Shown here piece by piece: positions 8,976 through 62,888 of a stretch of DNA of 64,000 nt. The notes below the pieces were generated by a model. The model ran no database searches, had not been told where the DNA came from, and worked only from the letters and a program-made list of their open reading frames with translations. The stretch is from Branchiostoma floridae (Eukaryota > Chordata > Leptocardii > Amphioxiformes > Branchiostomatidae), in NCBI RefSeq assembly GCF_000003815.2, contig NC_049983.1, forward strand, positions 17,266,746 through 17,330,745, written 5' to 3'. Within the stretch, counting starts at the first letter, position 1; each line of letters begins with the position of its first letter. The translations under genes were made by a program, and so were the position numbers.

Positions 8976-9625
8976 ACGTCAACTCGGAGATTTGCAGACT
9001 TGCGTCTGTCTGTGGCATATTATAAAGAGGTCAGACAACGGGAGAGGCTGTCAACCACATTCCTTATATGCTTCGACAAATATTTTAGATAATGATCTTC
9101 TTCTTCTTAAATGTCAGAGAAAGTCACCGTTCCAGTGACCGTTGTCTGGGGGTTGTCTCTATCTGACCAAGGAGGTTATATCTCTATATATAAACCTGCT
9201 TGATCTGACTTACTACATAAATTTATATCTACTTATCTCTCTCTCTATTGGTCATCTCTATACCTCGAGAATGAGAAGGATCTTTACGGAAATAAGAGTC
9301 TTTTACTTTAGCTTGAATGAAAGGTAACAGCTCATGTTACATAACATGGGAAGAAAGACTGCGGGCCCCTTCCATACGTTTTGCAGGTGAGTGTGTCACG
9401 TGCCCAACAGTAAACATGGGGAATTAGGACAGGGTAAGGAATTCCCTAAGGCAGCTCCAATTCACAAAATGACACGGTATTACGGACGAAAACAAAGGGT
9501 GGTTACCTGTTTGGCGTGGTGCGGGTTAAAAGGTCATCAACTCGACTAAAAAGCAGGCGAATCAAGGAGGTTAATCTATTTTTGCCTCATTGGGTGAATG
9601 TACAGGAAAGATAGCGGGATGTCAC

Positions 9626-9817
9626 TAGTCTCTACCAGACTCCGGGTCGCTGGAAAACTGTAGAAATAGAACAAATAGAGGAGTACGCCAGAGGAGTGTC
9701 GCCGGCTAGGGAACCTCCGCAGGTTGCGTACTGTTCCGGCTACACTCCTCTGGCTTACTCCTCTATTTGTTCCATTTCTACGGGATTTCCAGCGACCCGG
9801 AGTCTGGTAGAGATTAG
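9626..9817. mobile_element. Foldback MITE, family with 8-bp target duplication
   Basis: TAGTCTCTACCAGACTCCGG at the left and its near inverse at the right (ending GGTAGAGATTAG) bracket an almost perfect hairpin. GATGTCAC flanks both ends (9618-9625, 9818-9825). No coding capacity. Confidence 0.85.
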
Positions 9818-10468
9818 GATGTCACAGTGTTGGCTCGCGTAGGCGCCAGCTGAAGAGCGGTGAGGAGAGACAGGCAGCTCAACCACAAAGTAGGGCACGA
9901 CTCACGGTACTTGAAGCTCGCTGGGTCAGTGAACCCCTGCTACCGTTTGCAAAGCAACTACATGCAGTATATAAATCCCGGCCAGTGTTATGATGTCAGA
10001 CCTCTGCCAATGAGGTTCTCTCTTCATGGGCTCAATGCAACCTTTCTGCTGATTACCATTGAACGATTCTATTGCTGCTGACCATGTAGCATGAAGGGGT
10101 CAATGAATACTGAGTCAGACATAATGTCGGACGAACATTCATACAACTACTTAAATTTAGGCACACGGAAATTGACGGAATGCTATATGGTACGTAAGGT
10201 ATATTACGACTTAAATCCAGCCATACCTGTTCGAATGAAGAAGTTGACAACAGTAAGGCAAGATTGGTCAGTAGCAGATGTTCTACTCTGGACGTCAGAA
10301 ATCTGACATGGGTAGCTACAACTACCGGGGGCTGTTTGCGCATGCGGATTGTTTGTCATTTTCTTGGGGACAGACCAGAAATATTTTGGGGCGAAATGAA
10401 CGTAGTTAAATGGGCTGACCAAAAAAGGAATGCAGTCTCTCCAGGACATCTTGTCGGACGTAAATAGT

Positions 10469-10540
10469 TAGCCTGAGTCGAGGGCCTTATTAGTTTACCA
10501 GAGCTCCCTTGTAGACTAACCAGGCTGATACTCAGGCTAG
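10469..10540. repeat. Short inverted repeat
   Basis: TTAGCCTGAGT and ACTCAGGCTAG form the ends of a 72-base imperfect hairpin, MITE-like, with no coding content. Confidence 0.5.
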
Positions 10541-10862
10541 TAAATAGTAGGAAAGGAATTGGTCCAAATGTCAAATTCAAACAATCTACTAAAGACATCA
10601 GCCGGTCTTACTTCGAATGCATTATTTTGGTCAATAATTAAAATAGGCTGGCCAAACTGAAAACGACGTCGTCAGAATACCTTTGTTGATAGTAAAAAGC
10701 TTAAGCTATATAATAACTTATGTATATTTAGCTTCATGATAAGGGACCATTTTGTTTACTAGTGTGGTTGTTTGTACATTGTTGTGTAGTTCAATTCATT
10801 TTATGCACTTTCTTCCCGTTCTTTTACTTATTTTTTTCCTGCACCACCACCGTCTGCCACAC

Positions 10863-10986
10863 CTCTACCAGGCTCCCCAGGTCGCAAACTGTACTCCTCG
10901 GCCAACCAACTCCTCTGGTGTGTTTTATGTCTATTTGGCCAATTTCTACTATTTTTCCGGCGACCTGGAGAGCCTGGTAGAGAATA
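10863..10986. mobile_element. Foldback MITE, same family as at 9626
   Basis: Ends CTCTACCAGGCTCC and GAGCCTGGTAGAG are inverted; TGCCACAC is duplicated on both sides (10855-10862, 10987-10994). A lone half end of the family (GGAGTCTGGTAGAGACTAG) lies near 15280. Confidence 0.75.
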
Positions 10987-11950
10987 TGCCACACTAGCTA
11001 CACCTTGTCTCCCAGCACGCGATGTGCCGTGACTCGTGGGGCACTTTGTCCTGTATTATGTAGAAGCAGAAGAAGAACAATATGCCACCTTACCTTGTGC
11101 AAATCAGGCCGACTTCAGTTCCTTGCGCTAATGTGTTAAGCAAAGGGCTGAATCTTTCTTGTTGTTTGGAGTTGAACACAAAAGAATTTGCCGACGCGTC
11201 CGCTCGCCACTGTACGCCTGGCAAATGACGGTTAGTAATGTCTGCTATCGTCACGTCGGATGGGGTCTGATGACCACCTACTGTGGCCAATCAAGGCTCG
11301 CTTTCAGACATTCTCGCAAGTTGTCAGGCCTTGTGTCTGTATTACTCCGAGAGTATACTAAAACAGTCCGACACAAAAAAAGTTGGCCCAAGAAAAAAAC
11401 AAATTCACTTTTTGTGCGTTTCGCCGAAATAGTCCAAAATCTCTCACATCGGCCACGAAGTTCTATTCTGTCATCTAACACAGAAGACATGTTTATAATT
11501 TGCCATAAAAGGAACTAGTGAGGAACTATTGCTTAAGAAATTTAACAATGAATAACAATTAATTAAAGCAATTGTCCGTCAACAAGAGCAAAACATTTAC
11601 ATAAAATCAAGGATCTGAAATATATAAGATACTTTGCTATGACCTTGACTATACATGTAACTAAATGTTCAATAAAGGCACAAACAAAGAAACAAACATG
11701 CGTCAGTATATGTGTTTATTAGTAATACATGTACATCTTATTCACTTCTATGGCCGATCGCTGTTCTTTTGCCGTATTTCCCTGGAAATATCTCGATAAG
11801 CACACAATCAAGGTACTACACCAATTCGGTATTAGTTGCAAAACTGAAAACATAACAAAGTATGGGCTTTGTGGCAGTCATATATGCGGACAATGAAAGC
11901 GAGGCTATGGTTCGACAGTCATTTGGTAGTCCTTCGGTATCGAAGATGAC

Positions 11951-12010
11951 TCGTCACGTGTAATCGTCACGTGTACTCGTCACGTGTACTCGTCACGTGT
12001 ACTCCTCATG
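11951..12010. repeat. 13-bp tandem repeat carrying four CACGTG E-boxes
   Basis: CACGTG occurs at 11955, 11968, 11981 and 11994, exactly 13 bases apart, in the unit TCGTCACGTGTAC, followed by a mutated fifth unit (CTCATGTGG). A second small repeat, (CTAAGTCCAAAGTT)n, follows at about 12016-12064. It could be a cluster of bHLH sites or simply a microsatellite. Confidence 0.7.
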
Positions 12011-12979
12011 TGGCTTCTAAGTCCTTAGTCCAAAGTTCTAAGTCCAAAGTTCTAAGTCCTAAAGTTTCAAAAATTAGCACTGTACAATATGTTGAGCCGA
12101 CTGCAAAGTTACAATCATATACATATTTCTCCCTGTTTAAGACACAAATCTTATCACGATAGAAAATGCTGATACACTAACATCAAAGCCATACACAGGC
12201 TCACTCACTGCTACATGCCCCACTACAAGACAAAGAGTTAGCCACCCATATAGGCTTTGTTTTCATTATTTTCTGGACACGATACATGTCTGTAATACTA
12301 TACTAGTATTTTACACATATATATACAGCGACAATTTAGAATGTCTTGGAAAAGGAGACAGCAAACTAGAAATTCAACATTTTTTAAAAAAACTCAGAAT
12401 GTTTTGAATTCTCTCCCAGTAAGCAAGGAGGTTAATATATTCAAACATCCTTGGTAAAAACTACTCGCATACAATGCAGTATCGTCAGACTCGCCCGTGA
12501 GACGTCGTCAAAAAGGGCATTAACATGATTTATACAACTAGATTCATTCATTGAATTACTGCGATGATAAAACAAAAAGTATGTTATATGAAACTTTTTG
12601 ACAAACAATGAAATATGTGCTATTGTTCTTGACAGAATCAGTTCCTTCAAGTGCATTTTTGTGATATAGATGCAATATAACAGAACCAAATCTAAAACAA
12701 AATATACAAACATAGAGGAACATTGTATAGTTGCCTCCGTTTAACTGTCAAGTCAGAATAACAAAAAGAAAAAAAGAGCACATCAGCAAGACAAATATGT
12801 TTTCCTTTAAAATATCGGGAAACATGAAAAGACACATATGCAGGTACATCCTCATCTAACGTGTTGACTTAGCTCTACTTGTATATTTGAAATATCACAA
12901 AAAAAGCTTGTGTAACTTCGCCCTTAACTGAGACCAGCCAGAGAAATATTCCACAGTGCTTGTGGCGATCATAACCTAC

Positions 12980-13080
12980 ACTCCAAGCAGATGTTGAGTC
13001 GCGTAGATATAATAGTAGTCGGAAAAATTACACCGGCGCTCCTCCTACTATACCTACGCGACTCAACCTCTGCTTGGAGA
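12980..13080. mobile_element. CTCCAAGCAGA-type foldback MITE, copy 3
   Basis: CTCCAAGCAGATGTTGAGTC and the inverse GACTCAACCTCTGCTTGGAG form the ends of a 101-base hairpin. It lies just beyond the 3' end of lectin copy 1. Confidence 0.8.
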
Positions 13081-13107
13081 GTAATCATAACCTGATATGT
13101 ATGTTGT

Positions 13108-14274
13108 TTATGCATGCCCTAGACTGACCTGACACAGGAATGGAATACGAATGTAGCACGACCCGTCGTACCATCTCTCCGACTGCTGTATGATATTTTG
13201 GGGCTTGTGAGTAACGTTCATGCGAGAGGGGCTGAAATTCACGCAATCTTCCCATCCGCGATAGTTGTTGGGCTGCCCGGTGGCCCACAAGCTGTAGTTG
13301 CCGAGAGCGGTGCCGTCCACCCACCTGAACGATCCTTCGTCTTTACCCTGATCGTGCAGGCCAAACCAGAAGTAGGCCCTCTCGTTCACGGACTTGTACA
13401 GGGAGATCAGGAAGGCGTTGGTGTCGGCGTCTCGGGGCATGGCGAGGGTGCCGCCGTCAGCGTGGCATGCCAGGTCCGATTGCCAAAAGTTCTTTTTTGT
13501 GTTGAAGGCCTTGTAGCAGACTCCACGCCACTTGGTGTATCCCCCGGGACAAAGCGCAGACGGCCAGCCTACCTGGTCAAGACGCTTGCCCAAGACGGCC
13601 GTTCGGTTTCGCTCGCTGGCCAGGTTGCGTTTCAAGGCATCGACAGTGGTGGAGAGTTGCGACGTTTTGTTGATGAACACCACCAGGACGACTCCCAGGG
13701 TGACCAGGGCTACCACAACAACAAAGACGGCGGTCATGGTGCGGTAGCTGCAGTTGGCCCTTCCTTTATTTTCTGGACACGCTAACAGCTTGCAGACACT
13801 TCGGCGGTCTCCCGGTTTATCCTCATGTTCGTCCGCAGACGTGTCTACAGGACCCGGTGTGTCGTTTGTGGCATCGACCTCATCCTGGAGTGTATTCGCC
13901 TCCGGTGCAGTTTGCTGCGCCCCGGTCTCCTGTGCAGCTGTAGGGGACGAGAGCTTCGCCATCTGAAGTCGTGGTACCGCCTCGGGTACTTCATATGTGT
14001 TTGAAGACGTTTGCTGCGCCCCGGTCTCCTGTGCAGGCGACGAGAGCTTCGCCATCTGAAGTCGCACCGCCTCGGGTTCTTCATATATGTCTGAAGAAGT
14101 TTCTCGCCATTCTTGCCACCTGTGAGACGAGTTGTTGTCATGTGTACGTGGGGTGAGCCCACTTGCACCGCTCTGACCCACTGGCCATGGGATGCAATGG
14201 GACCGCGGCGCGCTGGCTAGTTCGTTGCTTTGACCAGCGATTCGGGCCCGGACTGGCTGTGCTTGTTCGTACAT
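13108..14274 (-). CDS. Type II membrane C-type lectin, copy 1 (intronless)
   Basis: One 388-residue open frame starting MYEQAQPVRA, the start shared with the paralogue at 26.6 kb. Residues 1-180 are a hydrophilic, presumably cytoplasmic region; 181-201 are a single membrane segment (TAVFVVVVALVTLGVV); a short stalk follows; about 242-381 are a C-type lectin-like domain beginning CPGGYTKWRGVCYKAF and ending FLCQ, with cysteines at the usual places. The carbohydrate-site motif is QPN (334-336) with WED (341-343) and WYD in place of WND (368-370), so calcium-dependent sugar binding is possible but not assured. The cytoplasmic part holds a tandem repeat of about 30 residues, each with a YxxP tyrosine motif (YEEP at Y64, YEVP at Y94), potential SH2 docking sites. 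This suggests a cell-surface recognition receptor, perhaps immune; ligand unknown. Confidence 0.9.
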   Translation of the reverse strand: MYEQAQPVRARIAGQSNELASAPRSHCIPWPVGQSGASGLTPRTHDNNSSHRWQEWRETSSDIYEEPEAVRLQMAKLSSPAQETGAQQTSSNTYEVPEAVPRLQMAKLSSPTAAQETGAQQTAPEANTLQDEVDATNDTPGPVDTSADEHEDKPGDRRSVCKLLACPENKGRANCSYRTMTAVFVVVVALVTLGVVLVVFINKTSQLSTTVDALKRNLASERNRTAVLGKRLDQVGWPSALCPGGYTKWRGVCYKAFNTKKNFWQSDLACHADGGTLAMPRDADTNAFLISLYKSVNERAYFWFGLHDQGKDEGSFRWVDGTALGNYSLWATGQPNNYRGWEDCVNFSPSRMNVTHKPQNIIQQSERWYDGSCYIRIPFLCQVSLGHA

Positions 14275-41840: not shown

Positions 41841-44674
41841 CCACAACTTTGTAATCTTGAAATGAATCTTGTATATGTATATGCCGCCTCCAGCCGGTTT
41901 ACTTTTCTCCCCTTTTGCCTGATGTCATATTTGCAGGTTCCGTTTCACGGCCGTCATTTGTTCGTTCTTAGTAATGCACAAAAGTATATAACCGACATTT
42001 GAAGAAAGCTCTTCTTTCTATCTGATCCTTTGATGGTGTCTTAATAAGTCTATCGTTCTACTTTGCAATCAACAGAGTGGACTTACCGAGATCGGGGAGT
42101 GATTTTACACCGTTCGTGCACCGGCTGGGCGTGCCGGCTATCGACCTGGCGTTTTTCCAGGACACGGTCAGCCATTTTTGTGACGTCGCAGTTGAATACG
42201 AGAAGCTATTCACGTATTGATGCGTTGCTACTCATAGTAACAAAACAAAAAACTAAACAATAGATGAAAAGGTCATATAAATAGTCCAAGTACAAACTTC
42301 AACATTTCTGGGTCTGTTTCAACGCCCTATTGCATTGATGAAGACAGGATGTTGGTACATCTATCATAATCTAGAAAGTAGCATCGTATTGCACTTCAAT
42401 GCCTCGTTGCGCCCTTTGATACCTTTCTGTCAAAAGCTGCGTATGCATTGTTATAAACATTAAGGTTGACATAAAAAACGATTGTTATCAATGTATCTAT
42501 AAAGTTAGCTAGATTTGAATGCGAATACCAAAGTTGTCCACTACCATAAGGCAAACAAGCCAATATATATGAATAAATCATTTGACTTAATTCCTCCACA
42601 GTCCATGGGTATTTGGGATTACCCACTGTACCACACGGCGTACGCGACCTTCCACCTCCAGAAGAAGATCATCGACCCGGACTTCCTGTTCCACCGGGCC
42701 ATGTCCCAGCTATGGGCGGAGACAGCGCGCTCCCTGGCCGACTCCCTCATCCTGCCCTTCCGCCTGTCGGAGTACGGCGCGGTTCTCGGCGGGATGATGG
42801 AGGACCTGGAGAGCAGGTACGGGACTCAGCTGGCGGCCAGGGACATCTCTCTCGGTGCACTCGGTGAGGAAAAGACAATGGATGTTGTTTAGGTTACTAG
42901 TACTATAATGTGCTTTCTGTCGTGTATTCTAAATCTGTATATTTTACATTCACACTTGAAGCTTCGTCGCACAAAAGGCTGTTGAAATGACACATGAATT
43001 TGTACCGATATTTATTTCTAGTTGGTCATTATGCCGTTGATCGATGCATTTTTTTAAGATTCTACATCATATTCTTTAAAAATGTACATGCATTGTCATC
43101 CTTCACTGTACCAGACTCTTAATGTACTCATTATAGAAAGGAATTGTGTGACTTTTTTGTAGTGTATACAATATTAAAAACTTTGATTATATGAAAGAGA
43201 GATCATAGACGGATCTTTGATATCTGCTTCAAGGTAGTTTTTTTTTTTTTAATCCGTCGTTCGCTTCCCGACATTCTCTGAAGGAAGCTTGTCCTGTAAT
43301 GCAGGCAACAAAAATTACCTTTTAAAAACGTGAAGGCGGGTGCTGTTTTTGTCTATATTGTATTTATTTTTCTTTTGTCCGATCCACACAGATTCACTAT
43401 CATCTGCGGTAAACAACTTCACAACTGCGGTGGACACATTTGATGCAGAGGTTGCTGGTGCAAAGATAACGGAGTAAGAGGCCACTGACTAGATCATTAT
43501 TTTCGTATGTTATATGTATGGGTGTGGTTGAACAACATAACTCAAGTGGCTACGGATTGATTGTTATGATATTTAGTATGTGGTTAGATATGCGCATATT
43601 GTTTTGGTACTGCAACGGTAATCTCGATTGTGTTCTGGAAATGCTGGTCATTTATTTTGGGCGGCGGACAGTTATTATGCTTGGGAGGAACTGACAATGC
43701 TTTGGCCCTCGAATTTCATTCTTCATTCGGCTAGAATTGCACTTTTACGACTTGACAGTTTAAAAATATGGTGTATTCTTATGAAGTGTACATGAATGTG
43801 ACTTTCATTTCAAGAGAGATGTTTAAGATTGTAGAACAAGTCCCATGATGCTTTTCTCTACCCCAGCCCATTTGTAGCCCGAATGTACAACGACCAGCTG
43901 ATGCAGCTGGAAAGGGCCTTCATCGACCCGCAGGGCCTGCCGGGAAGGAAATTCTACAGGTTTGTTACTGTGGTACTTCCCATAATACCCCTGTCACATT
44001 ATCCACGATCTTCGGGCGATGGAAGATCGGTCATATTTAAGATCGACAGAGGGTTGCGCTTTTTTTCACCTCAAAACCGTCCCTGTCACATATAAGCCAT
44101 AATTTGTACCTTGCACAATTGTTGTGCAATAAAGCTATTATTCATAAGCGAGGCTCGGGCGATTGCCGTAGAATCGTCGTCCGATCAATGTTCGCCAAAT
44201 GTGACAGGGGTATAATGACAACGCTTTGTTCACCCTGTCTTTTTTACATTGTGCCTTAAGACTTTTTAATGACTCAATAACTTCGGCCTCCGGCGGTTGT
44301 CCAGTTTGGTTGGACAATGTGAATAGCCTGTTGTGTAATTCTCAATGTTTTAAATAGCCCAATTCAGGGAGGCACAAGCCATTCCAAGCGCGTGTAAGTT
44401 TGTGGTATGAATACATAAATTTGACAGTGTTTCTATTGGGTTATGACGATGCAACGGCCAAGATTGTCATGTATGTTACAGGCACACAGTAATGGCCAGC
44501 CGTCTGTACTCCTCAGCGACCTTCCCTGCCCTCGGTGACGCCATTTACCTGGCCGTGAACAACAAGGCAGACTCTGAGGGGGCGTGGCGAGACGTTCGGA
44601 AGCAACTGTCAATCATAACGTTCATCATCCAATCAGCAGCCAATACTTTAGTGAAGATAGATTTAACGTCATAA
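29912..44674 (+). CDS. NAALADL1-like: NAALADL1-like M28B zinc peptidase, 18 exons, 750 aa
   Basis: Exons: 29912-30114, 31098-31271, 31683-31803, 32447-32569, 33061-33262, 33903-33996, 34518-34613, 34874-34959, 35196-35315, 36077-36159, 36259-36322, 36683-36750, 41318-41415, 42076-42166, 42602-42863, 43392-43473, 43867-43959, 44482-44674; total 2253 bp, phases compatible. Type II membrane ectopeptidase: signal anchor at about residues 8-30, then protease-associated, M28 peptidase and dimerisation domains. All five zinc ligands are visible: H375 (NHRDAW), D385 (GGVDP), E423 after catalytic E422 (WDAEEYG), D451 (NVDMAV) and H552 (YPLYHTAY). The arginine patch (SGRAR) that gives human PSMA/GCPII its taste for acidic residues is replaced by PAIDLAF, as in NAALADL1, so intestinal-type amino/dipeptidyl peptidase activity is more likely than NAAG hydrolysis. 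Start chosen at the first ATG before the anchor (MAMGPR). Intron 14 has a weak GTCAGC donor. Introns carry seven tRNA-Gly genes. Confidence 0.93.
30623..30763. mobile_element. CTCCAAGCAGA-type MITE, copy 4
   Basis: TAATCTCCAAGCAGATGT at the left and ACATCTGCCTGGAGATTA at the right. The interior is less palindromic than the other copies. Located in intron 1 of the NAALADL1-like gene. Confidence 0.75.
32711..32781 (+). tRNA. tRNA-Gly-GCC: tRNA-Gly(GCC) 2, in intron 4
   Basis: Same as tRNA 1 except for one C to T change in the T stem (GGCCTGGG), giving a tolerated U-G pair. Followed by a run of six T. Lies in intron 4 of the NAALADL1-like gene, sense orientation. Confidence 0.95.
34071..34141 (+). 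tRNA. tRNA-Gly-GCC: tRNA-Gly(GCC) 3, in intron 6
   Basis: Identical to tRNA 1 except that the last base of the 5' anticodon stem is T (CTCGT instead of CTCGC), leaving a U-G pair next to the loop. First unit of a three-fold tandem array. Confidence 0.95.
34228..34298 (+). tRNA. tRNA-Gly-GCC: tRNA-Gly(GCC) 4, in intron 6
   Basis: Full-length, sequence identical to tRNA 1. Second unit of the tandem array; followed by TATTTTAG. Confidence 0.97.
34384..34454 (+). tRNA. tRNA-Gly-GCC: tRNA-Gly(GCC) 5, in intron 6
   Basis: Full-length, sequence identical to tRNA 1. Third unit of the tandem array; followed directly by GTTTTAC, ending only 63 bases before exon 7 of the host gene. Confidence 0.97.
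35802..35872 (+). tRNA. tRNA-Gly-GCC: tRNA-Gly(GCC) 6, in intron 9
   Basis: Full-length, sequence identical to tRNA 1, followed by TGAAACTTTTTG. Sense orientation within intron 9 of the NAALADL1-like gene. Confidence 0.97.
36504..36574 (+). tRNA. tRNA-Gly-GCC: tRNA-Gly(GCC) 7, in intron 11
   Basis: Full-length, sequence identical to tRNA 1; followed by AGCATTTTTTTC, a flank related to those of tRNAs 3-5 and 8. Lies in the 360-base intron 11. Confidence 0.97.
36751..41317. other. Long intron 12 of NAALADL1-like gene
   Basis: The largest intron of the gene at 4.6 kb. It holds the direct repeat at 39.1-39.6 kb, a GC-rich patch of CCG/GCC triplets near 40430-40475, and a TATAAAG at about 40143 after a GC-rich stretch. 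I see no convincing coding exon in it. Confidence 0.6.
39100..39645. repeat. Direct repeat of about 280 bp, two units
   Basis: The units at about 39125-39375 and 39405-39640 share GACCAGCGGGGTGGGATCC, CCCCGGAACAGCCA, GTTGATCAACACAAAGG, GCGTCATTTCTTTT and AATTCTTTCTGACA. They lie in intron 12 of the NAALADL1-like gene; no coding signal. Confidence 0.8.
41669..41739 (+). tRNA. tRNA-Gly-GCC: tRNA-Gly(GCC) 8, in intron 13
   Basis: Full-length, sequence identical to tRNA 1; followed by AGCATC and a long T-run, then an (AC)n microsatellite. In intron 13 of the NAALADL1-like gene. Confidence 0.97.
41773..41839. repeat. (AC)n microsatellite
   Basis: About 33 uninterrupted AC units, 34 bases downstream of tRNA 8 in intron 13. 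Confidence 0.98.
43982..44216 (-). mobile_element. ATTATACCCCTGTCAC-type MITE, copy 2
   Basis: Same ends and internal segments as the 5.3-kb copy but in the opposite orientation; in intron 17 of the NAALADL1-like gene. Confidence 0.8.
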
Positions 44675-45003: not shown

Positions 45004-45191
45004 GATTTGGGGTGCGCATGTCGTGGTTTGACGTACATGCATCATGGCTTGACGAACATGCGTCACTGTTTGATGTACATGCGTCATGTCTTGACGTACA
45101 TGCGTCATGGTTTGATGTGCATACGTCATGGTTTGAGGTACACACGTCAAGGTTTGACGTACACACGTCATGGCTTGACGTACATGCGGCG
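45004..45191. repeat. 21-bp minisatellite, about 9 units
   Basis: Consecutive variants of GTTTGACGTACATGCGTCATG, 21 bases each, fill this stretch. The left-most unit is degenerate. The right-most unit runs into the final codons of the DyP-GRE gene (MYVKP then stop TGA at 45168-45170 on the minus strand). Because 21 is a multiple of three, both strands give long heptapeptide-repeat frames, which are not considered genes. Confidence 0.9.
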
Positions 45192-48100
45192 TCGCTGTTG
45201 GCCCTGGTGCACCGGGAATAAGGTGATGAAGAACTCGGTCCAACCGCCCTGGCGCACGCGCACTAGCTCGTATGGATCGGTCTGTTTGGATGCCTTCTCC
45301 AGTGTCTCCGGATTAGCACACGTGACTGAGGAGAAAAACAGATGGAGATAAAATTAGGTAATTACAAAATAAAACAGACTAGATGTAGATAGCCTTTTTG
45401 TAGCTATATAGTCACGTGAGATGAAATGGTAATTCTCTCCATTTTCATTAGTTTTGAAAGAAAACGGCACCTTTGAAAAGGGGATCCGCGCACATATGAC
45501 CGAAGCTGAGATGAAGCCAGTGTTCAGAAAAATAGAACCGACTATATGTAGCACTTGTCTTGTGGTTGATAGCCTGGTAAGAGGTTTCTATTGATTGGTA
45601 GTTAATATGTAATTGCCAGGATGCAAGTGCTGTTAAATCTGCAGTACAAAAATCAATAAGAAAAAAAAATCTCACTTGCGATGACGTTGGAGCCAATGGG
45701 GACGTCCAGGTCTGAGTAGTGTCGCAGAAAGTTGACCAGCTCCTCCAGCGGGAAGTCTTCACGTATCATCAGATCCACCTCAGAGCCGCACGACATGCCG
45801 ATGTTGATGACATCAAGGTCCCAACATTTCAGGGCCCTAAACAAACCAGACAATTCGCAGAGAAAATAAGACGTTGAATCAAGAGAGCAAGCCTTTTGTA
45901 TAATCTAAAACTTTGCAAGACAAACATGAAACAAACATAAATAAACATCTTTCTTCAAAATCAAGTACTGTAACCCAAATGCATAAGTGGCTCCATGGGC
46001 CTTGTTTTTAGGGCAGCGTTTTTAGGTGAACTTCAAGTAAATAAAAAAGCCTAAGTGAAAATTGTCTTCGGAAGACGAGGGAGAGAAGATGTGGAAAACT
46101 GTGAAAACAAGAAAGCAAGCATCACGGGAAAATGAATGTTGTTCTCCACTTACTCGTAAATGTTGTAGCTGTCAGGCCTAGCGGGCAGGTCCTGAGGTAC
46201 TGGTGCCGGGCTCAGGTCCGATGCTATCGGCTGGCCGCTCCGCCGCCCGTCCGCCGACGCCCCACTGTTCAGCCCGTACCCGACGTAGGCCTCGAACGTG
46301 CCTATCCCTACAAGCGTCACGAAGCCGAACGGCCTGTCGGGGAGAGAGTACTCCCTCTCCAGGCGCTCAAAGATCTCCTTCACCCCAGTGGGAGCATTCT
46401 CGAAGGTCTCCCTCAGGATCTTGAAGACGTTTTCGAACATCCAGGTGGCCAGCTCCTTCAATTCTGCGTCTTCGCGGTGGCCGAACTTTGGGAGGGACAC
46501 GGCTTCGTCTCGAAGGTGCCTGAAGAAGCTTGCCTGCGCCTCCCCTCTGCCCGTCCCGGCTCGCACGTCGATGAGGTACTCCTTCATGTTGTGGCCCCAG
46601 TCACACTTCAGACAGGTCAGAAGATCCGGGAGGGTCGTCAGCGCGGTGAGGGGGTCGTAGACTAACTTCTTGATCGCGTAGAGTGAGTTGATGGCATTGG
46701 TACCACCCGGAAACATGAAGCCCAGATCATGATACTCCGTACCGCCGCCCGAATGGTCCCGGCCGGCCTCTATGCATCCTCTCATCATAACAGACAGGAG
46801 AGGGCTGGGGCACACCTTCACGATGTTGCCGTAACCACCAGCGAGGAAAGACACGAGCAGGGGGATATGTAGGCGAAGGTGTTGCAAGAAAATCTCCTGG
46901 AATTGCTCGAACGTTTTGATCTCGGCTGCATGTGGCGAGGGAAAGGATTTCTTGGATCCCCGGAGGAAAGTTGGACCTGCCTGGGAGTAGAGCGTTCCCT
47001 CGTTCAGGGCCATTTCAACAGCGTCGAGCATCGGAAAAGTGGCGAAGGCGAACTCGGAGGCACCGACGAACACGGGCTCGAAACAACCATCACAGGCGTA
47101 GTTCCTGGCATCACTCAAGCGGACGGGAATCCCCCTCCTCCCGGAGTCCTGCAGGGCTGGAATCAGCCTGTCGTCATGCAGCAGGACCGGGTGAGCCCCT
47201 CCACTCAGCAGGGTTTTGGCAGCCTCCTTCAACACCTCTTGGGAGATACCTCGGTGTAGTCGTAAGGTCAGGCAAGGAGCGTTCAGAGGAAGACGCCTGG
47301 AAGCCCGGAGACACATTAGGGTGACTTCGTTGCAAGCAGTCGTCGGAACGTCGTCGTCGTTCGACAGGTAACCGCCGATGGTGAGCTGTTGTCCCCACTG
47401 GTTCATGCAGCCGCCCTGGGGGAAGTTTCCACCGCTTCTATAGGGAACGGCACACATACCCGGGTAGATATTATCCTGCGCTGCGTGGCGGTTTAGAAGG
47501 GTTCTCTCGCCGATCTTCATGAAGAAACAGTCGATGATTTCCTGGGCTTCCTCCCTGGTTGCCTGGCCCTTGGCGTAGAACGGTCCTAACAGCACGTCCA
47601 GTCTACCGATAGAGATCAGCTCACCAACGATGTGTAGACAGCAATGCATCGCGAAGAGAAGCTGTATGGCCTCTAGGAACGTCTCCGGCTTCTCCTTTGT
47701 GAGCTTCTTCATGCGGTCACGAGCCTGTCGAAGATTTGCCTTCTGCTCTTCGGTAAACGTTTCCTTGGTGGACAAGTTGTCAGCCAGTACTGCATAGCTT
47801 TCTATATAAGCCTGCACCCCAAGCAACGACTTCGCAGCTGAAATGAAGAACATCTGTTTATCCTTCGTCTGCGCGGACTTTGCGCTGTTCTCCATCTCAT
47901 CAATAAGGACTTGCAGACCCTTGTCGAGAATGACCTGATAATCCGGCACCACGTGTCCAATAGCTGCACCTTCGTTGACGCCCATTTGAAAGGCAGGAAT
48001 CTGCTCCTCAGGTGTCAGGTACGGCATCACCCTCTTCCCCAGACCAAACGCGAAGCTAGGCATCACTCCCACGATCAGCTCATCTGGGTAGATACGGTAC

Positions 48101-49479
48101 AGGTCGAACTTCCGGGAGAAGGGAGGTGTGCTGACGATGTGCTGCAGGGTGTAGAATGTGGCCAGACCTTTCCTGATGGGCACGGCGTTGTCATAGTTGT
48201 CGAGGAGCTTGCGGTCTTCCTTGCTGAGAAAGGTTTGGAGATCAGGGATGAGGGGCTCGTCCATCTTCTCGAACCAGCTGCGCTGCCAGTCGGTCAGGAC
48301 CCGGCCCATGAGTTTCAGGACACGGCTGCTGGGTGTGTGCTGAGTGTCCATGTAACCGCCTGTAGTCATCCGGTACATGTACTCTCGGCTGTTGTAGAAC
48401 ATGTAGCCGTTGTCGCTCTTGACGTCCCACTGTGGCATCAAGGTCAGTTGCTCACGGACTGGGACTGGCGCCAGGCCGAGCTCGTCAGCGCTTGGCACGT
48501 ACCAGAGGCTGCCTTCTTCTGCGTGCACGGTGCTGATCAGCTTGTCTTCTTGAGCAACGAGCTGCTTTAGAATGTCAAGGAAACGCTGACAGGTGTTAGC
48601 GCAGGAGATGTAGAAGGCGCCCTCCTCGCGGCCGATGCCGGTTTTGTTGAGACCGTAGGGCATGGACTGCCGGAAGATCAGGGGATGTTTCCCATTTTCG
48701 TCCAGGAGGTGTGCGCATTTGGTGTGCCTCCGCGGGTCATCGACCACCAGGATGTCGTCCTTCACGGTCCTCCCGATCATGTTCTCCAGCTGGTCCCGCG
48801 TCATGTTGTCCAGAATGGTCCAGTTGAAGACGAACTTCTGCGTCAGCATATACGACCCCCCGGTAGCGCCCTTGTCTACCTCCGTGGTGATGACGAAGTC
48901 GTCGATGTTTTCGACGTCCGTCGGGTTGGCCAGTCCGTCGGCGAAAAGGCCGCCGATGACGCGGTTGTTTCCCGTCTCCGAGTCTTGAATGTCGAAGCTG
49001 ACGTCTTGGAAGGCGTTCAGTTGTTGGCTGACCATGTCCTTCAGGCATCCGATGTGCTCCATGGAGTCGGACTTGAGAAAGAAGAACATGTCCCCGCCGG
49101 TGTTGACAAACTTGGTGGAGTTGGGAATAAGGTATCTCCCCTCCGGACGCTTCTCCAGACTTATTTGACCGTTTTGCCAGTTTTCCCAGAGCTCAGGATT
49201 GAAGGTCACTACGGACCAGGTTCGCTCTCCTGCGGCGCTCCCGTACTCCTGAAGCCTCCTGATCATCGCCATTATCTCTTGTCGGTGAGGTTCGGCTCCT
49301 TCTTGGTACCTGACGGTGACAAAGGCCCCATGTTTGGGCTTAGCGGCCAGCAGGCCAGGCTGCACTCTTCCAATCGGTTTCGAATCGCACTCGTGGACTT
49401 GTTCGGTGCCTCCGTTCTCATATCTCGCCCGTTTTGCTGGCTTCTCCATCACCCCTTGTACTGCCCACTGGCTTGCCAT
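45168..49479 (-). CDS. DyP-type peroxidase fused to glycyl radical enzyme (CxE class), 3 coding exons
   Basis: Coding exons 49479-46154, 45836-45676 and 45325-45168 (minus strand; 3645 bp, 1214 residues plus stop TGA) join with phases 2 and 1. Residues ~40-310 are a DyP-type haem peroxidase: FADGLANP (catalytic Asp D181; the first Gly of the GxxDG motif is Leu), GGSYMLTQKFV, IGRTVKDD, candidate proximal haem His H252, and FRQSMPYG with distal Arg R270. Residues ~385-1214 are a glycyl radical enzyme of the pyruvate formate-lyase fold: NYACDGCFEP supplies thiyl-radical C799 and base E801 (CxE, as in eliminases/dehydratases, not the CC of PFL), and the last exon encodes VRQGGWTEFF with radical-site G1190. 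The substrate is unknown. The first exon is 3.3 kb without an intron, unlike neighbouring genes. GREs are mostly bacterial, oxygen-sensitive and need a radical SAM activase, none of which is visible here. Horizontal origin is inferred; the two introns argue against contamination. Confidence 0.9.
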
Positions 49480-54489: not shown

Positions 54490-55210
54490 TATGTTAGTGA
54501 TAGATGAGACAGTGCAGTGTATACACTTTTACTTCAGAGTTAGTAAATATTTTAAAAAATGGCCCATCGATTGACACTAGACATAGGTCACAGTCATAGT
54601 TGTTATGTTCGTAGAATTCATTGATGAGATTGTAAATCTTTTTTTTTAGTAATGAGGCTGATTTACGTGATGGATGCACCTCCTTGAACACGGGAACTAC
54701 AGCATCCAGTCATCCTTGGGTGGTCTCCTATCCAAGAACTGTCCGGACTGCATGTTGCTTAACCTCGAGATCGAGGGGATCGGGTGTGTCAACGTGCCAC
54801 ACGGCCGTAGCATTATGCCACCTTTAATGTCTAAAGTTTACAAGTTTACAGATGAGATTATGGCACGTTTATTTTTGCAATACTACTCTGAATACCGCTG
54901 GCTACCAGTGACCTATGACATCAAACTAGTCTCTTTCTGTGGGTCTTCAGGCGCAATGTTTTATGTTAGTGATAGATGAGACAATGCTGTGTGTACACTT
55001 TTGCTTCAGAGTTAGTCAATAATAATAAAAATGGCCCATTGTTTGACACTAGATATAGCTGATATAGATATATATGCAGACATAGTTGTTCGGTTCATAA
55101 AAGTTCGTGGATGAGATTATGGCACATTCATGCAATGCTATTATGAATATTGGCTATCAGTGACTTATGACATCAGACTAGTCTCTTCCTGTGGGTCTTC
55201 AGGCGCAGCG
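54490..55210 (-). pseudogene. Degenerate tandem copies of the STEAP-A 3' end
   Basis: The stretch at about 54855-54958 repeats 55109-55212 (GATGAGATTATGGCAC through TGTGGGTCTTCAGGCGCA). In the minus sense it still spells a tail close to the true STEAP-A end (EDP, then ETSLMS and stop). About 54955-55100 is likewise repeated at about 54490-54620 (GTTAGTGATAGATGAGACA, CTTCAGAGTTAGT, ATGGCCCAT). These are fragments of the C-terminal/3' untranslated region duplicated downstream of the gene. Confidence 0.65.
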
Positions 55211-58200
55211 ACACGGCTAGGGGGTTTATTCCTCTCCCAGCCGCGGCGGATCCTGTCCACACGCGAGCCCACACAGGGCAGGGATATCACGACCTTCATC
55301 AGGACCAAGATGGCGGGGAGGACCAGCGTCAGCTGAAACACGGCGATGGTGTAGGACGAGAAGAGGCCCGGGAGGGTGAAGACTTCTGCGCCGTAAACAG
55401 CGTTGTGGACGATGGCGAAGATCAGGACCGCCCACCCGAGCTTGGACTGGACGAGGTTAAACTCGCGCCAGTTCATGGCGTTGGTGACGGAAGGGATGGA
55501 GGAGACGCCGAGGACGGTCATGAGGAAGAGCGAGAGGGCGCCGAACAGGAGGAACGTCTCTCCGCTCCAACGGAGCTTGCCGTACTTCACGTCCCCGCTA
55601 GGGGTCGCCGTTTGCTCAAACAGTCGTGCGTAGTACGAAGGACTCCATATCATAAACGAAAGAAAAGCGTGGACGATGGAGGCCAACAGGGACAACAGTC
55701 CGAGCTGCTTGCGTGCCAGCATCCACTTGTCGAGCCAGTTGGGGAAACGCTTGTACTTGGTGCCGTTGTATAGCTGTGTGAACGCAGCGAAAATGCCGGG
55801 AATGTAGACTAAACACAGCAAGGTGATAGCAGTCCCGGCAAAAGTCATGTTCATGACGCTCACGGGAATGTGAGATGCTTGGTTGGTCCCTGTAATGGCT
55901 CTAAAGATGACTACTCTGTACAGACAGTACAGGAAGAAGATGATGAAGACACCCAAGAACATCTTCAGCGCCAGGTGCCATGATGGCAGGAGCCGGAGAG
56001 GGATAGCCTCGATTTCACGCGCCGCCCGAAGACTCCCATAATCCACCGGGACAAATCCGAGATCCTGTGCCAGTTGCATGACGGTCTTGCGAGCGTTGTT
56101 GTCATCGCTACAAATAAAAACCTGAAACATATGGATGAAAATAAAGTGAATGTAGAGAATCCATGTAGCAAATATTTTTATATTCATTTTTGATAGAATT
56201 TCATCCATGAGTTCAAACATTGTACATATTACACCGTGCACACGTGGCCTGCATCTTCCTAATAACATAACATAGTCAAATCTTTATTGACACGACAAAA
56301 GCACAGCGGCTTTCGTAAGGTCTACATGTATAACAACTACTTACAGTACAACTAAACACACATATATGGATATCTATAGGTATGAACAAATCAACATATA
56401 GGGACTAGCATGTCATGTGTCTCGTATCTAGGAGGTTTAAAAGGGACCTCCTTGCTCGTATGTAAGGGCCACCATCTTGTTTATGTGTGATTCATCGAAA
56501 ACACATTATAATCTAAAATCCTTACCTCTTTCGAGCCTCCAAATAGTCCTGAACTTAGCGACCAGGCGGACAACACGTTGAACCCCTTCACCACGGTCGA
56601 GTCGGGGAACGATCTGGCCAAGTACTCGGCATTAGACTCACCCTCATGGATCTTAGAAAGACAGAAACAAACACAAGTTTGTCGTTGATTGCATCAGGGC
56701 CATGTCCATCCAGACATGCACGAGGAATACTGTAGATTCGATAAGCAACAGCCGTTGTTCCGAATTACGATCATTGTTTGGAGGCAAAAAGTTGGGGGGG
56801 GGGGGTGCGATAAAAGCTGTTTTTGTTGCAAACCGCCTCAAAATACAGGGATGCCATGGTGTGATTTGGTACACATGGAACATACTTCTCCTCTTTACAA
56901 GGTGTCTTTTTATCAACAATATATTGGTACAAATGTACTATGACCTTGAAAGATGAACAAGAGCTGACCTCTGTGTTGTTGCTGACGTCGATGAGAATCT
57001 TGCCGGCCAGAGCGTCCCGGTCGGCCTGCAGGGCGGGGTAGTTCTCCCGGTGGATGGCCACGAACACCAGCCCGGCTCCGGACAGGGCTGCCCGCCGGTT
57101 TGTCACAGCTGCACCCTGCTATGTCAAGTTAAGAGAATACTATAGAAAGGTCACGTTTGCAAACAAATACATAATGCTCACCTTCACAGGGTCAAGCCGA
57201 ACAAGCTAATGCTCTGTTTAGTCTTACCGTATAGGAGGTTCCGCCCCTGAGGCGTCGCCAAGAAGAAACATTATGATATTTCTTGTTTTGATGTTTTCTT
57301 AAGCTACAAAATATAGAATAAATGTAAGCACGAACAAAATATAAAAGAAACGCGGCAAAGCAGCATGTGTGAATGCAGCAGGTTTCAGTCTTAGCGAAAA
57401 TTGCCATAGACTCAGGAAAGGTGTCGAGAATTAATTACAGACAGAATGCACCGAAATGGTTACGGATAGAGGGTTGTTACCTATAAACGGACACGATGAT
57501 CAAATTTGTTTTCTTCTATGAACCCACATTATGGGTTCAAATCCACCATTTCACTATCTCTGGCCTACGAAAACGTCACAAAAATACATTTATGTAGCGA
57601 TACGTTAACGAACCTGTTTTGGCGGCAAGCCAGCCGTTTATCTAGGGCAGCAGGCCGCATCACGCGGAGCGACTGGGGATTGGGTGAAGGCCAAGATTAA
57701 GAGCACGCTACGGATAGGTCGAAGGGGGGGTTCTTTGTTCACTACCTCTTTCCGGGGATGATGGGGCCAGGTTAACATTTCAATTACGATGCGGACAAAT
57801 TCGTCGTATGTTGTCAATTCTCCCACGCAGAGACGAACCCGCGTCTTGGAACTTGGACGAACTAAGCGGAGTTCTATGGTGCAGGTTCGAATCTGCGTAC
57901 TAGGAGAATGCGGCCGTCGTAATTAATTTTCTAGCTGGCTGTAACAGAACCAACCGCCGACAAGGATCCAATACAGCCTTTTCCGTAACTGACAGCTGAA
58001 TTTTATACGATGCATACACGATAATAGCAAGACTACCCCCAGTTTGAGATTGTGCGATATCGATGGCACGACGAATGCGACCCTCAGCACGCGCTATGGT
58101 TTCGGAATTGGGAAGGAATTTCCCCCCAGTTTCGCCGACTGTGCAAAGCAGGATTGCTTGACTTCTAATTCTGAGCTGTAGGTCGAACTTTTGGTTTGGG

Positions 58201-60679: not shown

Positions 60680-62888
60680 CTACAGGTACGATGTCATCTC
60701 CGGATCCTCGTGGCCGTAGGCAGCGTTGGTCTGAGCGGTTTTGCCCCCGGGTCCGTTCCTCTCCCACCCTCGCCTGATCCTGTCCACACGGGAGCTGACA
60801 CACGGCAGCAGCGTGACGATCTTCATCAGCAGCAGGACCGCGCACAGGGTCAGGTCGATGTAGAAGGCCGGGCAGGTGTAGGACGTGAAGAGGTACGACT
60901 CGATGAAGGCCTCCGCCATGTACACCGCGCAGTGGGTGACGGCGAAGAGGAAGATGACCCAGCCGAGTTTGGACTGCACGAAGTTGAACTCGCGCCAGTT
61001 CATGGTGTTGGTGACGGAGGGGATGGACGTCACGCCCAGGACGGCCATCAGGAAGAGCGCGAGGGTACCGAAGAGGAGGAAGGTCTCCCCGCTCCAGCGC
61101 ATCATCCCCACCACGACGTCTCCGTTGGCGTTGACCACCGTCTTCTCGAAGAGGCGGTCGTAGCCATAGGCGGGGCTCCACTCCAGGACGCTGAGGCAAC
61201 CGTGGATGGACGCGATGAACAGGCACAGGAGCCCGAGCTGCTTGCGCGCCCGCATCCACTTGTCGAGCCAATTGGGGAAGCGCTTGTACTTGGTGCCGTT
61301 GTAGAGCTGGGCGAAGCTGGCCAGGACCCCGGGGGTGTAGACCAGACAGAGGGTGGTGATCGCGGTGTCGCCCAACGCCCTGTTCACCTGGTGTATGGGG
61401 ATGTGTGCGGCGTAGTTGTCACCCGACTTGATGGCGTAGAACACCACCCCGCGGTACACGTTCCACAGGACGTAGAAGACGAGGACGCCGAGGACCATTT
61501 TCAGGGCCAGGTGCCAGGACGGGAGGAGGCGGAGGGGCATAGCCTCGATCTCGCGCGCCGCCCGCAGGTTCCCATAATCCACCGGGACGAACCTCATGTC
61601 CTGCGCGAGTTGCATGACGGTCCTCCTAGCCTCGTCATCATCACTACTGATGAAGACCTGTAAGTCATAGGAGAGGCTTTATAAGCATTAAAATTCATCT
61701 ACGTCGATACATTATATTATGAAAAGTTTGAGCTGTTCTCCAGCCCAAAATAATTAGGACGTGCGGACCTCTCTCAACCGGGACGGGGTCCGATAAATCA
61801 ACTCCCAACAACCTTTGACCCATTGCTGACGTCACACGTTCGATCGAGCGACAAGTCGTGTGTCCAGAGCGATTGGGTCTAAGAACTATAAAGAAGATTG
61901 GGTGATTCAGCAGAAAATTCCTTTGAGTCCAATTATATTGAGTTGGAGAACATTTAAATGGACCATCCCGTCTTTCTAGTTGTTCCGCTTTCTTGACATT
62001 GTATTCTCAAGTTTACTCTACACTTAATTCTTAACACAAAAAACATGGATCTATAAAAACAGCAGGAGACTCTGTTGACCGACGTTCCCTTCATCACAAT
62101 ATATGGCCTCCCAAAATGTTAATGGCTACATACTGATTTCCACAAGTGGTAGTTTTCACATTCAAGTTACTAACAGTTTCCTTACCTCTTTTGAGCCTCC
62201 GAACAAGCCCGAATCCAGCGACCAGGCTGACACGACGTTGAAGCCCTTTACCACGGTGGAAGCCGGCAGGAGCCGAGCGAGATACTCCGCGTTAGACTCT
62301 CCTTCCTTCAGCTGGGTTGGACAAAGTCATTTCTAATGTCTGTTTCTCGGCATATGATTGCAAATTTTCAAAGGTCTGAAACAGGGTATTTACGTTCTAC
62401 AGCGTACGTACGGTCTGTAAGAAGATTGACAAGTACATATATACAGGAAACGTTTTTGATGAACAAACAATTCATCTTAAGTCCTCCTTTCCATACAAAT
62501 CTGTTTGAACATGCACAATTGACAGGCAGAGATGATCGCGTGCAGAACAACAGACAATGTCTGGCGACATTCTTTTTAGTTAACATCTAATCATCACTTA
62601 ATCTCACCATACTACAACTGGATTCAAATAGTATTGCGCTGAATCGATTTTCAAAGTTTACATGAATGGAGGAATAAGGGAAAATGCTATGTTTTCGGAC
62701 ATGTATGGCGTTCCACTGACCTCCTTTGAATAGTGACGTACCTTGGTGTTGTTGCTGACGTCGATGAGAATCTTGCCGGCCAGAGCGTCCCGGTCGGCCT
62801 GCAGGGCGGGGTAGTTCTCCCGGTGGATGGCCACGAACACCAGCCCGGCTCCGGACAGGGCTGCCCGCCGCGTCGTCACAGCTGCAGC
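60680..62888 (-). CDS. STEAP-like: STEAP-family metalloreductase, copy B (exons 2-4; exon 1 not in view)
   Basis: Exons 62888-62742, 62311-62186 and 61657-60680 correspond one to one to exons 2-4 of copy A, with the same phases. Exon 4 encodes [20 protein letters not shown], six membrane segments, the [17 protein letters not shown] loop and candidate haem histidines (ASIHGCLSV, AVTHCAVYM). The tail (GGKTAQTNAAYGHEDPEMTSYL) differs from copy A. An exon with the GSGDYSRSL-type nucleotide-binding turn is not found between 62.9 and 64.0 kb, so the first exon lies beyond the window or is lost. The very GC-rich third codon positions of exon 4 also give a 317-residue antisense frame, regarded as a shadow. 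Function as for copy A: probable transmembrane ferric/cupric reductase. Confidence 0.87.

Follow-up and report, generated by a model that had tools for sequence, protein, structure and literature searches.

A Branchiostoma gene joining a DyP peroxidase to a glycyl radical enzyme, and bacterial relatives in which a heme peroxidase may replace the radical-SAM activase

A stretch of 64,000 nucleotides from the genome of Branchiostoma floridae (contig NC_049983.1, positions 17,266,746 to 17,330,745 of the forward strand), referred to here as the window, contains a gene that encodes a DyP-type heme peroxidase joined to a glycyl radical enzyme (GRE). The bacterial relatives of this GRE were found nearly always together with a DyP, and no GRE activase was recognised in genomes where they are the only GRE. 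We propose that the animal gene encodes a horizontally acquired GRE whose radical would be made from H2O2 by the partner heme peroxidase, and that it belongs to an aerobic branch of the family; from sequence comparison we give this proposal about an even chance of being right. To our knowledge, the characterised GREs all need a radical-SAM activase and anoxia, and we know of no characterised animal example of this kind of radical enzyme.

RESULTS

The gene lies on the minus strand of the window at 49479-45168 and consists of three exons (49479-46154, 45836-45676 and 45325-45168) encoding a product of 1214 residues, with the DyP peroxidase first and a complete GRE after it. The gene model confirms both the extent of 45168..49479 and the length of 1214 residues proposed in a first-pass annotation made from the letters of the window, and the domain matches of the spliced protein bear out its reading that a DyP and a GRE are fused in one gene. 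Exon 1 covers residues 1-1108 with part of codon 1109 and takes in the start methionine, the DyP domain, a connector and the greater part of the GRE barrel; exon 2 was recovered in an own-genome tblastn search as the piece 1106-1162; exon 3 supplies VRQGGWTEFF, the glycyl-loop sequence, and ends with the stop codon. Both introns have GT/AG ends. Intron 1 (45837-46153) has 317 bases and 37% GC and intron 2 (45326-45675) has 350 bases and 36% GC, while the exons have 55-58% GC. In the spliced protein, Pfam detected the PFL-like barrel domain PF02901 at residues 496-1024 (E 4.2e-92) and Dyp_perox_C at residues 179-332 (66.9 bits versus a cut-off of 20, E 2.4e-18); Dyp_perox_N gave no match at E<=0.01. 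The NCBIfam DyP superfamily model TIGR01413 (Dyp_perox_fam) matched residues 40-334 with 103.7 bits, just above its cut-off of 100.5. The DyP fold spans residues of about 33-337 (48469-49383), and the GRE barrel runs from about residue 377 on, its exon 1 part occupying 46154-48351. The GRE half is nearest to the PFL2/glycerol dehydratase subfamily TIGR01774, yet it reaches only 198.7 bits against a cut-off of 678.2.

A tblastn search of plasmids with the GRE half matched 50 records (40 listed). Among the matches listed, the best two by far came from one Asticcacaulis and one Hymenobacter. The Asticcacaulis plasmid encodes DyP and GRE in a single gene; on the Hymenobacter plasmid the GRE extends over two frames and is followed by a DyP-domain gene. 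In this Hymenobacter locus (L015, 9022-12361; L-numbers denote loci and G-numbers genomes or records of the analysis) the frame change of the GRE lies near a run of C and the DyP gene ends before its His/Arg part, both of which may be sequencing errors. A first scan of genome contigs with the GRE half of three animal copies, using patterns derived from the connector, found no relative. A second scan with an alignment of the C-terminal region gave 34 loci; since it relied on clade-specific motifs, its counts are not prevalences. One locus, L056 from an archaeal metagenome-assembled genome (MAG), looks like an ordinary GRE with an adjoining radical-SAM frame and was set aside from the clade.

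DyP and GRE were closely associated in the 33 clade loci. The same two-domain protein, which the first-pass annotation had proposed to look for in bacterial genomes, was found at 16 of them, the DyP preceding the GRE in one gene (L034 among them is frame-broken). At another 15 a DyP-like gene lies directly downstream of the GRE on the same strand. The two loci with no visible DyP are L054, where the contig ends, and L051, a C-terminal gene fragment. The latter, from an Acidobacteriota MAG, retains no more of the GRE than a C-terminal piece of 366 residues; no DyP match lies near it, and it is possibly decayed or misassembled. Two genomes hold two members each: an Acidobacteria MAG (G016) has one fusion and one two-gene form (L060 and L039), and an Archangium (G009) has two fusions (L059 and L031). 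We take most host genera of the clade loci to be aerobes.

In order to determine whether these GREs are accompanied by an activase, the GRE activase model TIGR02494 was run on the 32 genomes behind the 33 loci (L054 and L044 share one) and on two plasmid records. Strong scores were obtained in only three of the 32 genomes: 182.5 bits in G013 when taken with its neighbours, which is above the cut-off, 128 in G007 and 127 in G008. Exactly these three also contain a canonical PFL (PF02901, 697-725 bits), on the same contig and no more than about 2 kb from the activase match. No GRE activase was recognised with TIGR02494 in the other 29 genomes, where the best score was 47.9 bits, and the PF02901 matches there are the clade genes themselves, as judged by frame length or by reading (G032 was read). 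NrdG, the other glycyl-radical activase, exceeded its cut-off in one of the 32 genomes and reached 80.7 bits in one more. Among the 50 plasmid records, five canonical GRE loci were fetched, and an annotated activating protein is adjacent in all five.

We also compared both kinds of GRE within 399 genomes from the order of G002, in which 41 matched PF02901 at E<=1e-20. Canonical and DyP-linked GREs were assigned here by match pattern and frame length, with G237, G177, G062, G002 and G007 known individually. TIGR02494 matched 37 of the 41 at E<=1e-12, all with at least 122 bits and 18 over the curated cut-off. The four genomes with no activase match are G002 and G237, both of which have a DyP-linked GRE only, G177, where the contig stops within ten bases of the end of the canonical GRE, and G062, where the PFL extends up to the end of its contig. 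The fusion in G237 carries GGWSEFF, beyond the reach of the motif scan. Altogether, a recognisable activase is present in 37 of 39 genomes with other GREs and in 0 of 30 with a DyP-linked GRE only (Fisher p 1.6e-17, a value that overstates the contrast because the genomes are related and 29 were chosen by motif). The 30 comprise those 29, G002 included, plus G237; G007, which has both kinds, is counted among the 39. Since no partner activase was found in any of the 30 bacterial genomes, the fusion is, on these profile comparisons, a DyP-linked variant of the PFL-like fold and not a canonical activase-dependent GRE. A GRE that occurs nearly always with a DyP and without the normal activase is the pattern expected if the DyP made the radical, as we propose.

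The GRE half keeps the residues expected of a radical enzyme. In an alignment of 38 clade rows, Gly1189, Gly1190 and Trp1191 of the window protein (45240-45248) are invariant in all 38, and Gly1190, the predicted radical site, aligns with the G of RVxGY in seven of seven canonical GRE rows. Cys799 and Glu801 of the thiyl/base motif Cys-Phe-Glu (47077-47085) are invariant, together with His509, in every row that extends far enough to include them (35 of 38), and the thiyl-loop cysteine is also C in all seven canonical rows. The residue that follows the radical glycine is Trp in 38/38 clade rows versus Tyr in 7/7 canonical rows, the glycyl loop reading RVRxGGW in the clade and RVxGY in canonical enzymes. 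Because barrel, thiyl cysteine, neighbouring glutamate and radical glycine are all kept, the GRE half probably works by radical chemistry, and its C-x-E motif points to the eliminase type. One column with Asp in two of the seven canonical rows, which we take to be Asp447 of the dehydratases, is occupied in 35 clade rows by Phe (30) or Leu (5); glycerol or propanediol is for this reason an unlikely substrate. The clade thus differs from glycerol/1,2-propanediol dehydratase and choline TMA-lyase in this column, in having Gly-Trp and not Gly-Tyr, in its DyP partner and in that no activase partner was found.

The DyP partners are of more than one type. The downstream DyP of L046 matched 37 PDB sequences at E<=1e-5, topped by deferrochelatase/EfeB-type chains, and the fused DyP domain of L023 matched 36, topped by class B-type chains (DypB, DtpB, YfeX). 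The downstream DyP of L038 matched the EfeB equivalog model below its cut-off (158.8 versus 428 bits), and the L023 fusion gave no match to that model. Given the different matches of L046 and L023, one GRE clade is seen to pair with at least two DyP subfamilies; the typing covers L046, L038 and L023, and the remaining downstream DyPs were placed together by their blastp matches to the DyP of Hymenobacter. Asp, His and Arg are retained in 14 of 14 aligned downstream DyPs (L050 and the short Hymenobacter DyP were left out). These two-gene partners thus resemble EfeB-type (class A) DyPs in sequence match and heme residues, but the L038 protein falls under the equivalog cut-off and the gene stands directly after a GRE. 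The window protein has all three residues, Asp181 (48937-48939), His252 (48724-48726) and Arg270. Asp181 we take to be the catalytic or distal Asp of DyPs and His252 the proximal heme ligand. Its GxxDG motif keeps the Asp, and the first Gly is not kept. Among 21 aligned fused rows, His252 is present in 21, Arg270 in 20 and Asp181 in 15. The fused DyPs are like class B enzymes in fold and putative heme residues, and differ from them in being fused to a GRE and in that the Asp is replaced in 6 of the 21 rows.

Several observations weigh against a radical made by the peroxidase. The Asp replacements in the fused rows are to Glu in five and to His in one, and one row, L060, has neither Arg nor Asp, perhaps because it is misaligned or degenerate. 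Many of the genomes searched are drafts or MAGs, and the search scores best candidates only. Four of the 32 genomes (G009, G018, G027 and G031) hold another radical-SAM protein that scores 28-48 bits with TIGR02494 and that in principle might serve as activase. Some radical-SAM match at E<=0.001 was present in 24 of the 34 genomes or records; by motif, we take six of the stronger frames (L061-L065, L075) to be two MoaA-like proteins and four of the AmmeMemoRadiSam kind. In the animal genome, an exon-by-exon search at E<=10 gave no match to TIGR02494, TIGR02493 or PF13353, but this search is weak: PF04055, run as a positive control, gave only seven pieces of about four radical-SAM genes, by motif presumably MOCS1, LIAS, a CDK5RAP1-type protein and ELP3. 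An activase is nevertheless likely to be absent from the animal. A putative PFL activase has been reported in the fungus Chaetomium cochliodes, which has a DyP-PFL fusion of its own (Zamocky et al. 2016, PMC5041501). Finally, of the profile searches proposed in the first-pass annotation, those for the DyP and PFL families succeeded while Gly_radical (PF01228) was unmatched, both in the spliced protein (E<=0.01) and in the genome, where the region is split over three exons.

The first-pass annotation had suggested that the peroxidase might guard the radical. In such a model a conventional activase, which our searches did not recognise, would install the radical, and the DyP, by clearing peroxide, would allow the GRE to withstand air. 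A DyP fold with mostly conserved heme residues would suit this role. A guarded GRE would still need its activase, however, and none scored above 48 bits in the 30 genomes with a DyP-linked GRE only, as opposed to the 37 of 39 with other GREs; a radical-making peroxidase therefore fits better. The main destroyer of glycyl radicals is O2, which a peroxidase would not remove. The Chaetomium fusion gene responds to H2O2 with 3-fold and to peroxyacetic acid with 18.5-fold induction (PMC5041501). This and the putative activase reported in the same fungus speak for a guard, although the induction also counts in favour of a radical-making peroxidase. On balance we consider the guard model unlikely, though one to be kept in mind.

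A second alternative is a relay in which no radical is stored. The DyP would oxidise a substrate or a protein residue, the GRE barrel would use a transient thiyl radical or bind the product, and the glycine would be structural only. The absent PF01228 match is in keeping with this, as are the departure of the glycyl loop from the canonical form and its poor modelling in L023, where residues 1146-1151 fall below 50 in predicted local distance difference test (pLDDT). The invariance of Gly1190, Cys799 and Glu801 across the clade speaks against the relay, which we regard as distinctly improbable.

Two more fusion genes were found in the animal genome by an own-genome search with the protein or PF02901. 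L012 and L013 lie about 40 kb apart on one 25.6 Mb contig (C8), and share with the window gene its architecture and both intron positions; their frames are open. The ratio of nonsynonymous to synonymous substitution rates (dN/dS) for whole genes, taken pairwise among the three copies, was 0.15-0.33 (NG86) or 0.13-0.32 (YN00). By part, it was 0.14-0.23 for the DyP and 0.14-0.40 for the GRE (NG86). Both halves of the animal fusion look to be under purifying selection by these estimates, and the GRE catalytic residues are retained in all three copies. It is conceivable that the animal copies are decayed or inert, left over from a transfer and now functionless, as a genome with no activase match might suggest. 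With three intact copies, the same introns, whole-gene dN/dS of 0.13-0.33 and preserved catalytic residues, we think this highly improbable. Between L012 and L013, dS (NG86) is 1.7 for the DyP part and only about 0.2-0.3 for connector plus GRE, which looks as if gene conversion had homogenised the 3′ part. All three copies open with a short basic stretch (PAKRAR, PAKKRR or PAKRMR; 49479-49399 in the window) that is unstructured in the model and was seen in none of the bacterial starts read; we take it to resemble a nuclear localisation signal.

A tree of 42 rows places the 35 DyP-linked GREs in a single group (support 100/100), with seven canonical GREs outside it. Within this group, the 14 rows that lack an N-terminal DyP cluster together (99/99), among them L054, whose downstream gene is unseen. 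The opposite side of the group consists of 18 fused rows and the three animal copies (100/98). There the animal copies make up a clade of their own (100/100), nested in the fused bacterial rows and adjoining 11 of them (100/98). The root is unsure because of long outgroup branches, about which the program gave a warning. Since the animal copies nest among bacterial fusions, the tree supports horizontal acquisition of the animal genes from bacteria.

Contamination was considered as a source of the fusion gene and is unlikely, given its introns, animal-type neighbours, long contigs and paralogs. The contig that carries the window is 29.6 Mb long, in a genome of 513 Mb, and frames flanking the fusion gene match C-type lectin, EamA transporter, ferric-reductase and transferrin-receptor-dimer domains. 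Upstream of the fusion are two related frames with ferric-reductase transmembrane domains (55165-56283 and 60680-61678), presumably STEAP-like, and downstream is a transferrin-receptor-dimer-like frame (43835-44095). A 21-base tandem repeat at 45020-45188 (8 copies, 80% matches) takes in the final codons of exon 3; the array thus includes the stop codon, and a minisatellite forms the 3′ flank.

We also examined the neighbours of the bacterial loci. Those of the fused loci, from which a substrate was sought, have few families in common. A PLD-like family recurs near the GRE at ten loci, nine of the two-gene form (L015, L038, L041, L043, L047, L048, L049, L053 and L055) and one fusion (L037); in L038 the region concerned is 9517-13366. 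Some of these loci add HAD, cytidine deaminase, trypsin-like or nuclease genes, which suggests a larger module. The idea that the two-gene form is a defence system, prompted by these recurring neighbours, was examined with PADLOC, using 10 proteins from L015, L038, L046, L048 and L053. The one GRE and one DyP tried were unmatched, the PLD and trypsin-PLD proteins gave weak matches, and a strong Septu-type match belongs to a separate neighbour in L053.

DISCUSSION

DyPs pass oxidising equivalents from the heme to surface Tyr and Trp residues. In the mechanism we propose, H2O2 would convert the DyP heme to Compound I, and the oxidising equivalent would travel via aromatic residues into the GRE and leave a glycyl or thiyl radical there. 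The invariant Trp1191 adjoins Gly1190, and a Trp beside the radical glycine is a candidate terminal relay. The DyP as radical maker, the transfer path and the reaction class are what we infer. The fuller statement, that a heme peroxidase replaces the radical-SAM activase in an oxygen-compatible GRE branch that uses two DyP types and of which the animal keeps three genes, is put forward tentatively, at slightly less than even confidence.

Ribonucleotide reductases offer an analogy. In class I, an oxygen- or peroxide-derived metal oxidant makes a thiyl radical in a barrel enzyme; the anaerobic relative uses a glycyl radical. By analogy only, as class I is unrelated to the DyP part, DyP-linked GREs may be to PFL-type GREs what class I is to class III ribonucleotide reductase, an aerobic counterpart.

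The first-pass annotation knew of no GRE joined to a DyP, but the fusion is already known. A DyP-PFL fusion was described in Chaetomium cochliodes and its function called elusive; its detection in other prokaryotic and eukaryotic genomes is cited there, and a transfer between proteobacteria and ascomycetes is described (PMC5041501). Deuterostomia and Mollusca are among the taxa in the legend to the DyP tree in Figure 5 of that paper, which does not specify the fused ones. Compared by description, the fungal protein and ours share an N-terminal B-type DyP, a C-terminal PFL-like domain and bacterial transfer, and differ in the fungal host and the putative PFL activase reported there. Section 17 of PMC5041501 makes no mention of a two-gene form or of an activase missing in bacteria. 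In the open-access literature searched, the fusion was described nowhere else, the passages of PMC12373286 and PMC4420034 consulted do not mention it, and nothing was found on a two-gene form, on the missing activase or on activation by the peroxidase.

A GRE clade in which no activase is found and which stands nearly always beside a heme peroxidase suggests that there may be a second, air-compatible way to make the radical. If this is true, GRE chemistry would be opened to aerobic organisms and to biotechnology, and animals would gain a radical enzyme of a kind for which no characterised example is known in them.

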